The position numbers were made by a program, and so were the translations under genes. The notes beneath the pieces were generated by a model that was given only the letters and a program-made list of their open reading frames with translations, was not told the DNA's origin and did no database searches. Shown one piece after another: positions 4,395-23,716 of a stretch of DNA of 49,012 bases. This DNA comes from Colwellia sp. (GTDB taxonomy: Bacteria; Pseudomonadota; Gammaproteobacteria; Enterobacterales; Alteromonadaceae): contig JABSOX010000039.1 in NCBI GenBank assembly GCA_013215655.1, positions 1 to 49,012 on the forward strand, written 5' to 3'. How positions within the stretch are numbered: the first letter of the stretch is position 1; the number at the start of each line of letters is the position of its first letter.

Positions 4395-4630
4395 TGCTTG
4401 ATTATCTATAACTAACTTTATCTAGGCGCAAAGGTACCTTAGCTAAGCGTTGGGGTCAATTATCGCTGCTTTATTTCAAAAATTAAATTTATTTGCTAAT
4501 TAGGTTAAGTTACTGACAATATAGACGATAATAACTAAATAGAATTATACTCATGTTATTGGTATAAAATTATTATTGTATTATTATTTTAATAAAGATA
4601 ATGACTGTGAAACCTGAATAGGGGAATTTT

Positions 4631-5395
4631 GTGGATTTAGCTACGGTTGTTGGCATTCTTGGTGCTATTGGTTTACTGGTCATGGCAATGTTATTGGCTG
4701 GTGATATCAGTATGTTTCTTGATACCCAATCTATGATTATTGTATTTGGTGGCTCAACTTTTGTGGTTCTATCAAATTACACGCTAGGGCAGTTTTTTGG
4801 TATTGGTAAAATTATGGGTAAAGCTTTTATGTTTAAGCTTGAACAACCTGAAGAGCTTATTGAAAAAGCAGTTGAAATGGCTGACGCAGCACGTAAAGGT
4901 GGTTTTTTAGCATTAGAAGAAGCAGAAATATCAAATGCCTTTATGCAGAAAGGTGTTGATATGTTAGTTGATGGCCACGACTCTGATGTGGTGCGTGGTA
5001 CGATGCAAAAAGATATATCGTTAACATCTCAACGTCATGAAAGGGGCGTAGGCATGTTGATGGCACTTGCTGATGTTGCACCTGCAATGGGTATGATTGG
5101 CACACTAATTGGCTTGGTAGCGATGCTTTCAAATATGGATGATCCTAAATCTATTGGCCCTGCAATGGCGGTTGCACTATTAACAACGCTTTACGGCGCA
5201 TTTTTAGCGAACGTTATCGCTATCCCTATGGCAAATAAGTTGAAGTTACGCTTGGCCGAAGAAAAAATGAATCAGGAATTGATCCTTGATGCGGTTTTAG
5301 GGATTCAAGATGGTCAAAATCCACGTGTTATAGAAGGATTGCTTAAAAACTACCTTTCTGAAGGCAAGCGTGCAGCAGATACCACTGAAGAGTAA
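4631..5395 (+). CDS. pomA: Flagellar motor stator protein PomA (Na+-type MotA homologue)
   Basis: PomA, with PomB, forms the inner-membrane stator that couples ion flow to flagellar rotation. The gene starts with GTG at 4631, preceded by AGGGGAA about six bases upstream. The 254-residue product opens MDLATVVGILGAIGLLVMAM (first membrane segment) and has four predicted segments. The last pair, VGMLMALADVAPAMGMIGTL and PAMAVALLTTLYGAFLANVI, is the conserved MotA/ExbB channel region with its prolines. It is closest in style to Vibrio-type sodium stators (inference from sequence resemblance). pomB follows 12 bp downstream, so the two are an operon. The promoter should lie in the 236-bp spacer divergent from xseB. 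Confidence 0.95.
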   Translation: MDLATVVGILGAIGLLVMAMLLAGDISMFLDTQSMIIVFGGSTFVVLSNYTLGQFFGIGKIMGKAFMFKLEQPEELIEKAVEMADAARKGGFLALEEAEISNAFMQKGVDMLVDGHDSDVVRGTMQKDISLTSQRHERGVGMLMALADVAPAMGMIGTLIGLVAMLSNMDDPKSIGPAMAVALLTTLYGAFLANVIAIPMANKLKLRLAEEKMNQELILDAVLGIQDGQNPRVIEGLLKNYLSEGKRAADTTEE

Positions 5396-20222: not shown

Positions 20223-20560
20223 ACTAAGGTAACTTCTTATTTTTTTGCGTTAGACTTTACCGTATGAAGTGTTGATAAGAAACTCTAATTCTTTGATCGT
20301 GACCTTATTTGATGAAATTTAATGGTGATAAGCTACTCAAGAAACATTTTATTACGATTAATAGAAAACTGTATAGGTACAATTGATGAAATTATTGTAA
20401 TGATTTGTTGGTGCATACGGTCACATACAGTCAAGTATTTGAATTTATTTGGTTGGTATTTCTGGTTGTGGCAATAAATAACGTGATTTGACCATTGAAA
20501 AACTGAGATCAAGCCACAAATTAGAAAGCATAACTCTTGCTTAAAGCATTGGGACATATT
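20223..20560. other. Divergent promoter region between the NhaC-type gene and gshA
   Basis: This AT-rich spacer should hold promoters for both flanking genes. I find no convincing operator, riboswitch or repeat. The minus-strand open frame at 20333-20557 looks spurious: it overlaps the gshA start and shows no family motif. Confidence 0.5.
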
Positions 20561-22132
20561 TTGACATTATCTTTTAGTGAACATATAGCTACATTTAACC
20601 AAGCCTCAAATTTGTCATCATTGACAGGGTTTGGTCGAGGCATTGAACGAGAAGCCTTACGTGTATTAAGCGAAGGTCGGCTTTCAGAAGAGCCTCACCA
20701 TTATAATCTCGGCTCAGCATTAACCAATCCTTATATAACTACAGACTATTCAGAAGCATTATTAGAGTTTATAACGCCGGTTAGTTACACACCTGAAGAG
20801 ACTATTGCACAATTACAAGATATTCAAAAATTTACGCTTAGTCAGCTTAATGGTGAGTTATTGTGGCCAATGAGTATGCCGTGTTTTGTTGATGATGCTG
20901 AAAAAATACCGCTGGCTCAATACGGCAGTTCAAATGTCGGTACCATGAAAACTGTATATCGCCAAGGGCTTAAAAACCGTTATGGCAGCATGATGCAGGT
21001 TATTTCGGGAATTCACTTTAATTTTTCGTTTCCTCAGAGTTTTTGGCGAACACTACAAACGATCAATAATAATAGTGATAATTTAGATGATTTTATTTCT
21101 GAACGTTATTTTTCTGTATTACGTAATTACAAACGTTTTTGTTGGTTGATCCCGTATTTATATGGTAGTTCTCCGGCAATATGCCCTTCTTTTTTACAAG
21201 GTAAATCACAAAACTTACCTTTTAAAAAATCAGCAAAAGGTTATTTATACTTAGAGCATGCAACGTCATTACGGATGAGTGATTTGGGGTATACCAACAG
21301 TGAACAATCATCATTACAAATTTGTTATAACAACCTTGATGGTTATTTAGATGGTGTTAAAAAAGCCATAAACTTAACGTCAGAAACATTTGAAAAAATA
21401 GGCATTAAAGTTGATGGGCAATATCAACAATTAAATGGCAATGTATTGCAAATAGAAAATGAACTCTATGCTCCTATTCGCCCAAAACAAGTCGCAAAGT
21501 CTGGAGAAAAGCCTTCGGAGGCTTTACAAAATAGAGGGGTTGAATACATTGAAGTTCGTGCCTTAGATGTAAACCCTTTTGTTGATACTGGCATCAGTCT
21601 CGAACAAGTTTATTTCTTGGATATTTTTCTTACCTATTGTGCTTTAAAAGACCATTCAAATTTAGATTGCTCAATACAGCAAAATTATGAAAAAAACATG
21701 GATGAAGTTGTTATTCGTGGTCGAGACCCATTATTACGATTATCTGATCATGGAGAGATAAAATCAGTTAAACAGTGGGGTTTGGAAATCTTTACTGAAA
21801 TGATGGATGTTGCATTACTTTTAGATAAAGCAAATAATTCAACCAAGTATCAGCAAGTACTGAAGAATGAAAAAGCAAAATTAATTGACGCAAACTTAAC
21901 TCCTTCGGCACAAATTTTAGATATTGTGGTAACTAAAGAAGGGAGTTTAGTAGGAACGGCCTTAGAAATGGCAAGTGGTTATCGTGAAGCTCTCCTAAAG
22001 CAAGACTATAAAGTATTTGATCTGCAACATTTTGAAGACAGTGTTATAACCTCTCATCAAGCGCAAAAAAACATAGAGCAAAGTGATGAGGTGAATTTCG
22101 ACCAGTTTTTAGCTGAATATTTTGCTGATTAA
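20561..22132 (+). CDS. gshA: Glutamate-cysteine ligase
   Basis: GshA joins glutamate and cysteine with ATP, the first and limiting step of glutathione synthesis. The sequence is of the gammaproteobacterial GshA type: GFGRGIEREALRVLSEGRL, LGSALTNPYITTDYSEALLE, LWPMSMPCFVDD, LAQYGSSNVGTMKTVYRQGL and YIEVRALDVNPF. I choose TTG 20561 (MTLSFSEHI, about 523 residues) because GGGA ends six bases upstream. A TTG at 20537 would add eight residues but has a weaker site. The gene stands alone; gshB is not in the window. No U-rich plus-strand terminator directly follows; the hairpin at 22171-22191 is oriented for the minus strand. Confidence 0.95.
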   Translation: MTLSFSEHIATFNQASNLSSLTGFGRGIEREALRVLSEGRLSEEPHHYNLGSALTNPYITTDYSEALLEFITPVSYTPEETIAQLQDIQKFTLSQLNGELLWPMSMPCFVDDAEKIPLAQYGSSNVGTMKTVYRQGLKNRYGSMMQVISGIHFNFSFPQSFWRTLQTINNNSDNLDDFISERYFSVLRNYKRFCWLIPYLYGSSPAICPSFLQGKSQNLPFKKSAKGYLYLEHATSLRMSDLGYTNSEQSSLQICYNNLDGYLDGVKKAINLTSETFEKIGIKVDGQYQQLNGNVLQIENELYAPIRPKQVAKSGEKPSEALQNRGVEYIEVRALDVNPFVDTGISLEQVYFLDIFLTYCALKDHSNLDCSIQQNYEKNMDEVVIRGRDPLLRLSDHGEIKSVKQWGLEIFTEMMDVALLLDKANNSTKYQQVLKNEKAKLIDANLTPSAQILDIVVTKEGSLVGTALEMASGYREALLKQDYKVFDLQHFEDSVITSHQAQKNIEQSDEVNFDQFLAEYFAD

Positions 22133-22163
22133 AGCTTTCATATTTAAGAAAATAATTTTAGAC

Positions 22164-22232
22164 AAAAAAAAGCGCGTTAGGGCAACGCGCTATAAAACTA
22201 TGAAAGCAGTCCAGGGAGGTTTTGCTTTCATA
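22164..22232 (-). ncRNA. Candidate small RNA 1 of a paralogous pair
   Basis: Read on the minus strand, a perfect 8-bp hairpin ATGAAAGC/GCTTTCAT (22231-22200) displays a loop with CCTCCCT. After a short AU linker (GTTTTAT) comes a terminator hairpin AGCGCGTT/AACGCGCT (22191-22171) followed by at least eight T. The plan and linker are shared with candidate RNA 2 at 22575-22648. The upstream blocks TTTGAACTAT and TCATAAT are also shared, at identical spacing. The CCTCCCT loop could pair with Shine-Dalgarno sequences. Predicted length is about 68 nt. Nothing here shows that it is transcribed. Confidence 0.6.
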
Positions 22233-22234
22233 TA

Positions 22235-22265
22235 TTATGACTTTACTTATTTCAAATAGTTCAAA
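22235..22265 (-). promoter_or_regulatory. Promoter-like blocks for candidate small RNA 1
   Basis: On the minus strand, TTTGAACTA (22265-22257) and TCATAA (22240-22235) are separated by 16 bp. The same blocks with exactly 16 bp between them precede candidate RNA 2. The layout resembles an RpoE-type (extracytoplasmic sigma) promoter of the GAACTT-N16-TC class. A sigma-70 reading, TTGAAC-N19-CATAAT, is possible but has a long spacer. Confidence 0.5.
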
Positions 22266-22295
22266 AAACATTCAATTTATTTTTAAATAAAATGT

Positions 22296-22562
22296 ATATA
22301 CCCAAGATACCTCAAGATGCTCGTTTCAGGACGCCCGAGCAATTCATGATCTAGGCGTGTATTTTATTAATGGTTGTTCCCTTAATTAGATACGCAACGA
22401 CGAACATGATTTACTCGGACGTCCCCGTAGGGCTGGTTTAGAAACGTTTATACTGCGTTATTGATTTCGACAATAGAAAAAACTATTCTCATCAATCAAA
22501 GCCTTGCCTAAAACGTTTCTAATTCCAGCTGAATCCTGCATCTTGAGGTAACTTGGGTATAT
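22296..22562 (+). mobile_element. MITE-like element, copy 1
   Basis: A 267-bp non-coding element is bounded by terminal inverted repeats. The left end (22297-22320) begins TATACCCAAGATACCTCAAG and the right end (22538-22561) is its complement with one mismatch in 24 bp. Inside, a second inverted repeat, GAGCAATTCATG (22337) against CATGATTTACTC (ending 22416), closes an 80-bp core. The core is shared in opposite orientation with the element at 23402-23716. No transposase is encoded. It sits between the two candidate small RNA units. Confidence 0.8.
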
Positions 22563-22574
22563 GAAAAAAAAGAC

Positions 22575-22648
22575 AAAAAAAAGCGCATCTTACTTAACAG
22601 TAAATGCGCTATAAAACATGAAACACTAGGGAAATAAGCCTCTCATAT
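22575..22648 (-). ncRNA. Candidate small RNA 2 of a paralogous pair
   Basis: On the minus strand, hairpin ATGAGA/TTTCAT (22646-22618) presents a loop containing TTTCCCTA. The linker GTTTTAT leads to a terminator hairpin with outer stem AGCGCA/TGCGCT (22610-22582), then a run of eight T. The plan, linker and AGCGC-type terminator match candidate RNA 1, while stem bases differ in a pairing-preserving way. Predicted length is about 74 nt. Its 5' end lies upstream of, and antisense to, the leader of the transglycosylase gene that begins at 22766. Confidence 0.6.
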
Positions 22649-22649
22649 A

Positions 22650-22680
22650 GTATGAGCCAAGAATTTTGTTATAGTTCAAA
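22650..22680 (-). promoter_or_regulatory. Promoter-like blocks for candidate small RNA 2
   Basis: TTTGAACTA (22680-22672) and TCATAC (22655-22650) are separated by 16 bp on the minus strand, the same arrangement as upstream of candidate RNA 1. They are compatible with an extracytoplasmic-sigma type promoter; assignment is inference. Confidence 0.5.
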
Positions 22681-22765
22681 TAAAGTTTATTTAATTTTTA
22701 TAAACGCTGTAATTCAACTATCTTTCTGGCATTATTATTTTATAAATCACCATAAAGTTTTCCTT

Positions 22766-23392
22766 ATGCCTTTTTATTTTTCAAAAATCATTACTTTAGC
22801 GATGCTTGTTTTTATTTTTTTGACGAGCTGTGCAACCCCACCACCAAAGAATCCTGAAAATTTATGCGAAATATTTCGAGAGCATAGAAGTTGGTACTTC
22901 GCCGCCAAAGATGCAAAAGATAAATGGGGAGTACCTATTCATGTACCAATGAGCATGATGTATCAAGAGAGCTCTTTTAGATCGGATGCTTTGCCCCCTA
23001 AAGACTATTTATTTGGATTTATTCCTTGGGGACGTGTTAGCTCTGCTTACGGTTTTTCTCAAGCTAAAACGATGACATGGGCTGATTATATTAGAGAAAC
23101 AGGAAATTCAGGTGCAGACCGAGATGACTTCGATGATGCAATTGATTTTATGTCATGGTTTATTTTTAAAACTCAGAAAATTAATAAAGTTTCAAAATGG
23201 GATACTTATAATCAATACCTTAATTATCATGAAGGTTGGGGAGGTTTTAAGCGCAAGAGCTATAAAAAGAAACCTTGGTTGGTGAAAGTTTCTCGTAAAG
23301 TAGATAGCAGAGCTAAACGATATAGCGGACAACTAAAAAGTTGTGAAGATGAACTCAATTCAAGTTGGCTATGGCGTTTATTTTTTGGTTAA
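22766..23392 (+). CDS. Lipoprotein lytic transglycosylase (SLT-like)
   Basis: This is a predicted periplasmic lipoprotein of about 208 residues. I start at ATG 22766 (MPFYFSKIITLAMLVFIFLT) because it gives a clean lipoprotein signal with lipobox LTSC; the frame is open back to 22652. The mature part contains VPMSMMYQESSFRSDALPP with the likely catalytic Glu, then VSSAYGFSQAKTMTWADY and YHEGWGG, matching the transglycosylase SLT fold, which cuts peptidoglycan glycan strands with 1,6-anhydro product. It has no partner genes. It lies between two inverted copies of a MITE-like element, and the upstream leader carries a candidate antisense small RNA. Confidence 0.85.
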   Translation: MPFYFSKIITLAMLVFIFLTSCATPPPKNPENLCEIFREHRSWYFAAKDAKDKWGVPIHVPMSMMYQESSFRSDALPPKDYLFGFIPWGRVSSAYGFSQAKTMTWADYIRETGNSGADRDDFDDAIDFMSWFIFKTQKINKVSKWDTYNQYLNYHEGWGGFKRKSYKKKPWLVKVSRKVDSRAKRYSGQLKSCEDELNSSWLWRLFFG

Positions 23393-23401
23393 GTCAATTT
23401 A

Positions 23402-23716
23402 AATACCCGTTACCATTCAAAGTGCATGATTTCAGTTGGAGTTATAAGTACTTTAGGCGAGGCATTCGTTTTAGAGAAGGGGTATTCTCGGCAACTACGT
23501 TCTGCGTTGCCCTAATGGTCCACATCGATGTGGAAACCTTGTCAAAATGAATAACGTGGCATAAAGTGCTTATAAACCAACCCAGAGGGGACTACTGAGT
23601 AAATCATGCTCGTCGTTGCCTCTTTTTTCAAGGGAATGACCATTAATAAAAAGAGACCCTTGATCATGAATTGCTCAGTAGTTCTGAAATATGCATCTTG
23701 ATTGGCAACGGGTATA
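23402..23716 (-). mobile_element. MITE-like element, copy 2 (inverted)
   Basis: A 315-bp non-coding element has imperfect terminal inverted repeats. The left end (23402-23435) begins AATACCCGTTACCATTCAAA; the right end (23684-23716) ends CAACGGGTATA. Its internal 80-bp core (23597-23676) is the reverse complement of the core of copy 1, sharing for example GAGCAATTCATGATC, TTTTATTAATGGT and CAACGACGA. The terminal repeats differ from copy 1, so it belongs to a related subfamily. Small open frames across it are not credible genes. Together the two copies bracket the transglycosylase gene. Confidence 0.75.

Follow-up and report, generated by a model that had tools for sequence, protein, structure and literature searches.

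The window analysed here, a stretch of 49,012 nucleotides of Colwellia sp. (contig JABSOX010000039.1), contains two short units on the minus strand beside gshA (Table 1). Both are present at the positions given in a preliminary description, and each has a predicted promoter, a C-rich hairpin at the 5′ end and an intrinsic terminator. Unit 1 (type A, see below) was predicted to fold at −24.9 kcal/mol (z −5.38), with none of 200 shuffled sequences equally stable, and unit 2 (type B) at −23.4 kcal/mol (z −4.39), with 1 of 200 equally stable. The linker and terminator words common to the two units are direct repeats. In both units the −10 element is followed on the minus strand by TATAT and then G, and the predicted starts were placed by register with E. 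coli micA, in which TATAT precedes GAAAG. The terminator of unit 1 lies about 30 nt past the gshA stop codon. A small ORF within unit 1 was considered and rejected, its ATG being absent from many relatives as judged by reading. The SLT_4 ORF probably starts at 22766, as a lipoprotein. The MITE-like repeat between the units is an insertion and lies outside the sRNA units. Stretches related to this repeat, with 77–86% identity, were observed elsewhere in the genome, including positions 23539–23701 of the window.

Table 1. Features of the gshA-linked locus (positions in the window)
Feature	Position	Strand	Remarks
gshA (PF04262)	20537..22132	+	convergent with the sRNA units
Unit 1 (type A), predicted sRNA gene	22163..22229	-	predicted +1 G at 22229
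Unit 1 terminator hairpin	22171..22191	-	from the fold; then U-run to about 22163
Unit 1 C-rich loop CCUCCCUGG, presumed seed	22211..22219	-	from the sequence
Unit 1 promoter −10, TCATAA	22235..22240	-	16 bp from −35
Unit 1 promoter −35, GAACTA	22257..22262	-	layout as in E. coli micA and the genome's own rpoE
MITE-like repeat between units 1 and 2	22296..22562		34-nt inverted ends, 88% complementary
Unit 2 (type B), predicted sRNA gene	22574..22644	-	predicted +1 G at 22644
Unit 2 terminator hairpin	22582..22610	-	from the fold; then U-run to about 22574
UUUCAUG of type B in unit 2	22617..22623	-	kept also where the 5′ stem partner is lost
Unit 2 seed AUUUCCCUAG	22626..22635	-	predicted pairing with TonB-receptor ribosome-binding sites
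Unit 2 promoter −10, TCATAC	22650..22655	-	16 bp from −35
Unit 2 promoter −35, GAACTA	22672..22677	-	from the sequence
SLT_4 transglycosylase ORF	22652..23392	+	divergent from the units; luxS lies here in E. coli

The conservation of the units was examined in the best 80 of 221 gshA loci obtained by a scan of genome contigs. When both strands of the 1500 nt following gshA were searched for a promoter (spacer 15–17 allowed) with a terminator hairpin, 165 units were found on the expected minus strand, of which at least four are probable chance matches (e.g., L045.2, L051.2, L089.3 and L095.2), and 1 on the plus strand. Among the controls, dinucleotide-shuffled sequence averaged 4.0 units and the strand antisense to gshA itself yielded 12, so that the common plan of promoter and terminator noted in the preliminary description is beyond chance. 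At least one unit was found within 1500 nt of gshA in 72 of the 80 loci; the loci lacking one in this interval were L032, L064, L065, L079, L084, L106, L110 and L111, among which L065 and L079 extend only 481 and 138 nt past gshA. L032 belongs to Pseudocolwellia sp. AS88 (gshA 73%), one of the three closest named relatives, and its positions 4580–5200, 3′ of gshA, hold the end of another gene; the lack of a unit in so close a relative weighs against the sigma-E sRNA interpretation given below. The spacer is 16 in all 162 gshA-linked units retained for typing, two chance matches with spacers of 15 and 17 having been left out.

A further sample of 67 gshA 3′ regions of 700 nt each, 27 returned by searches and 40 chosen by hand, contained units in 21. 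Within the own family, units were found in 13 of 16 regions, two of them (L270 and L280) far from gshA. In the other families, units were found in 2 of 3 regions of f18, where they read as MicA itself, in 2 of 4 of f20, in the single region of f5, in 1 of 3 of f6, at +525 and apparently spurious, and in both regions of f2; the same search of 700 nt 3′ of gshA detected no unit in the 16 other families sampled. The f2 regions (L243 and L244), from the same order, carry tandem units with a GAACCA-N16-TC promoter and the core GCAAGAGUUGUUUUUUCAUUUUU. This pair, whose core is different and whose E values with the type A covariance model R1 (see below) are 0.011 and 0.016, is perhaps an independent duplication. 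A UCAUCCCUGCGAAA version occurs at 5 of 6 Photobacterium loci. The pair in the window also belongs to a larger family than the preliminary description had in view.

The proposal that the two units are an RpoE-type, envelope-stress-responsive sibling pair is supported at the sequence level by the constant spacer and by the layout shared with E. coli micA and with the genome's own rpoE, which carries GAACTT-N16-TCCTAC 91 nt before its ATG. RpoE itself was identified in this genome with 323.9 bits (cut-off 236.15). For comparison, the sigma-E promoter motifs of Salmonella are given as GGAACTTTT and GTCAAA (PMC1804206). The presence of RpoE and the promoter layout support a predicted place for the units in the class of sigma-E-dependent, OMP-repressing sRNAs. 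The wider sigma-70 family gave 21 matches in the genome, so another ECF factor may act instead of RpoE.

Two types of unit were distinguished. Type A, represented by unit 1, has the stem GAAAGC/GCUUUC and the loop UCCCUGG, and TCCCTGG is shared by 31 of the 42 distinct type A sequences. Type B is defined by the 22-nt core UUUCCCUUAGUGUUUCAUGUUUU, from which unit 2 differs by 2 mismatches. With the window added to the 80 loci above, type A occurs in 39 of 81 gshA loci, type B in 46 and both in 30, the types being assigned by regular expressions with a few units misfiled (L052.4, L080.2, L086.2 and L086.3 were counted as A and look B-like; L088.1 is unlabelled). In 30 of the 30 loci holding both, the type proximal to gshA is A. 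Type B copies number 1 in 19 loci, 2 in 10, 3 in 10, 4 in 4, 5 in 2 and 6 in 1, and their mean identity is 87% within a locus versus 69% between loci, with 7 of 99 pairs identical. Such closer likeness within a locus is expected from continuing duplication or conversion.

Is the 5′ stem itself under selection? The preliminary description had reported stems that differ in sequence yet remain paired, and had taken this as a sign of selection on RNA structure. The stems are indeed paired, but they are nearly identical (AUGAAA/UUUCAU versus AUGAGA/UUUCAU, a single A-U to G-U change). Pairing in helix 1 is preserved in 96.5% of cells over 19 type A sequences; the substitutions there affect one side and produce only G-U or U-G pairs, and all five pairs changed on both sides lie in the terminator. 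Compensatory evolution of the 5′ stem was accordingly rejected as strong evidence. A 5′ helix of at least 4 bp was predicted for 41 of the 42 distinct type A sequences and for only 61 of the 98 distinct type B units; together with the weak covariation in type A, this leaves the claimed selection poorly supported. RNAalifold found no consensus structure in the type B alignment, in which the terminators align badly. Of the 60 type B sequences without the 5′ GARA partner, 51 retain UUUCAUG or UUUUAUG; the conservation of UUUCAUG may thus need a reason other than the 5′ stem.

Type B is also dispersed. The own genome contains five more type B genes on other contigs, all with an identical 22-nt core and with promoter and terminator kept; the flanking ORFs, as read, revealed no common neighbour. 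Across the family, the core was found at up to 3 mismatches in 27 of 79 genomes and exactly in 12 of 52 genera, versus 5 matches in total for a reversed-pattern control. Thirty loci were fetched by the core, and a promoter 21–24 nt before it was found in 22 of the 24 with 0–2 mismatches, as against 88 of 4400 sampled background positions in a looser 12–50 nt window, a comparison that is not fully independent in that the core derives from promoter-selected units and several of the loci are gshA-linked. Of the two exceptions, L193 is truncated at a contig edge and L205 lacks such an element. The loci with 3 mismatches, of which 1 of 6 has a promoter, are probably chance matches. Another contig of the own genome (C82:33704–33753; L118 1550, minus strand) holds an RpoE-like promoter with a spacer of 16 and a short, terminated, CCCU-containing unit unlike A and B, possibly a further sigma-E sRNA.

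The preliminary description had further suggested Shine-Dalgarno sites as possible pairing partners of the loops. This was supported in silico for type B, including unit 2, and not for unit 1. Seeds were compared on the start regions of TonB-dependent receptors, 62 of the 67 Plug-domain receptors of the own genome (2 are cut by contig ends; L295, L312 and L344 were dropped), versus 229 other genes from 400 kb, with start codons chosen by a heuristic and duplex energies that ignore accessibility. The seed of the dispersed type B genes favours receptor ribosome-binding sites by 2.42 kcal/mol (p 5.2e-7), against +0.06 ± 0.68 for shuffled seeds, of which 0 of 100 were as extreme. Energies of −13 kcal/mol or better were reached by 20 of 62 receptors versus 20 of 229 other genes, and by 6 of 69 when the controls were signal-peptide-like (p 1e-5). 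The effect is located at −25 to −1 (p 2.7e-7) and is absent at the start codon (p 0.9). Unit 2's own seed also prefers receptors (p 4.3e-4; 2 of 100 shuffled seeds as extreme), whereas the unit 1 seed shows no receptor preference (p 0.66; 8 of 100). Neither an anti-Shine-Dalgarno control seed (p 0.53) nor a MicA seed (p 0.29, on a set of 49 receptors and 127 controls) prefers receptors. A U-rich control seed without CCC does favour them, by −1.43 kcal/mol (p 3.9e-6; its shuffles −1.08 ± 0.44), and the receptor leaders are A-rich, indicating that part of the type B advantage is composition. The comparison was repeated in a second genome, G061, with 30 of its 49 receptors and 247 controls. There the gshA-linked seed reached p 2.7e-4 and the dispersed one p 0.058; for neither was any of 100 shuffled seeds as extreme.

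The ribosome-binding sites of the receptors are themselves unusual. GGGAAA is present in 8 of 62 versus 0 of 229 others, and AGGAG in 1 of 62 receptor starts versus 19 of 229 controls and in 0 of 30 receptors of G061. AGGGA was observed at 10 of 62 receptor starts versus 6 of 229 in the own genome, and at 8 of 30 versus 10 of 247 in G061. The near-lack of AGGAG and the favoured AGGGA are a class-wide peculiarity of receptor genes. GGGGA is not enriched in the receptors of G061 (2 of 30 versus 10 of 247). Several other candidates were set aside. A two-site model, in which UUUCAUG would also pair with CAUGAAA at start codons, gave p 0.01 in the own genome and p 0.7 in the second. Genome-wide, AGGGAAA-N-ATG is not in excess (104 versus 98 in the reversed-pattern control), and CAGGGAG-N-ATG, at 30 versus 5, was dropped as evidence, an open frame of at least 60 aa following in only 15 of the 30. 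For unit 1, duplex energies with five OMP genes of the own genome, together with start regions of OmpA-type genes inspected by eye, gave no clear conserved site and no convincing OmpA-type target, and a site in an OmpA-domain lipoprotein (L170) was rejected, lying only in the 8% tail of controls with unclear conservation.

Units 1 and 2 are probably separate, sigma-E-driven genes for trans-acting sRNAs at the ancestral micA position, type B repressing TonB-dependent receptors and type A acting on other targets. Under outer-membrane stress, RpoE would transcribe both units as RNAs of about 67–71 nt, which presumably use Hfq. Through its UUUCCCU stretch, type B would base-pair with receptor mRNAs at their unusual ribosome-binding sites (GGGAAA/AGGGA/GGGAG), block receptor translation and so lower the flow of the main outer-membrane proteins, and unit 1 would stay next to gshA with a different target set. 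It was considered very improbable that the units are instead bidirectional gshA terminators or repeat elements of the MITE kind, yielding no independent RNAs. The closeness of the unit 1 terminator to the gshA stop and the repeat between the units would suit such a reading, but the repeat has its own ends and excludes the units, nearly all units lie on one strand, each counted unit has a promoter-like element, and dispersed copies lie away from gshA.

If the units do encode RNAs, these could be local duplicates of a MicA-type gene without new function, their copy number reflecting neutral drift. The likeness of type B copies within a locus and their variable number fit this idea, which appears improbable given the exact core in 12 genera, the promoter spacing held at 16 and the promoter, core and terminator kept in the dispersed copies. 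Less improbable, though still unlikely, is that type B, under sigma-E control, acts against Shine-Dalgarno sequences in general or titrates another RNA, the receptor preference mirroring A-rich leaders and G-rich sites. The U-rich control points in this direction, as do non-receptor genes among the best type B pairings, including the single best (−21.5). Against it stand the shuffled seeds of the same composition, the similar result with signal-peptide-like controls, the failure of the anti-Shine-Dalgarno seed and the restriction of the effect to the ribosome-binding site. Beyond receptor repression by type B, a wider picture is put forward tentatively, at slightly below an even chance: the micA locus would have founded an expanding family of sigma-E sRNAs, tandem and solo, each with its own RpoE promoter, providing dosage-tunable silencing of a receptor class via its peculiar ribosome-binding sites. 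The position of a gshA-linked, sigma-E-type sRNA extends to Photobacterium and many Alteromonadaceae relatives, and the loci show its tandem and dispersed multiplication. They thereby offer a direct test of the co-evolution of sRNA copy number with target ribosome-binding sites in the main nutrient receptors of marine bacteria.

How do the units relate to MicA? In E. coli, micA (GAACTC-N16-TCTGAG-TATAT-GAAAGAC) is separated by 8 nt from gshA, towards which it is transcribed, and is divergent from luxS. The units resemble it in their place 3′ of gshA, strand, GAACTN-N16-TC promoter, distance to the GAAAG start, TCCCTG core, length of about 70 nt and terminator, which supports regarding them as its putative positional counterpart. 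No Rfam family matched in the window, and the MicA model (RF00078), which scores E. coli micA at 83.9, gave no match there, none being listed at E up to 10 in positions 22120–22760, and none in 16 related loci. Model R1, built from type A with unit 1 as a seed sequence (85.8 bits), found unit 2, which is absent from the model, at 31.7 bits (E 4e-4), and gave no match to E. coli MicA (L112) at E up to 5. Membership in RF00078 is therefore not supported. Common descent with MicA is nevertheless likely, judging from position, promoter register and the UCCCUG core, although neither covariance search bridges the gap. Unlike MicA, the Colwellia units comprise two types with tandem and dispersed copies and adjoin SLT_4 instead of luxS, and type B is predicted to act on TonB-dependent receptors. 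A 2015 review delineates MicA to Enterobacteriaceae (PMC4618604), and another report describes a Bordetella homologue with 60% identity (PMC12235514). In the open-licence literature, no title or abstract on gshA-linked or sigma-E sRNAs in Colwellia or Alteromonadales was found, and a term search of the main text of PMC11882849 (Pseudoalteromonas) and PMC5471319 (Shewanella) returned neither gshA nor MicA.

Other small RNAs share single features with the units. The CcsR or cuckoo RNAs contain tandem stem-loops with C-rich, anti-Shine-Dalgarno loops and are co-transcribed with a small protein gene; unlike in these, each copy here has its own promoter-like element and terminator. RybB, VrrA and MicV differ from the units in locus and sequence. 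What they have in common with the proposed role is the principle of an RpoE-driven sRNA lowering OMP synthesis (PMC1804206, PMC2628432, PMC8359247), MicV being mentioned there via Peschek et al., 2019 (PMC8359247). LhrC1-5 of Listeria offers an analogy only, being Gram-positive, under LisRK two-component control and equipped with three motifs per RNA; it is likewise multicopy and envelope-stress-induced, with CU-rich UCCC motifs, and it pairs with lapB mRNA across the Shine-Dalgarno sequence (PMC4132741).
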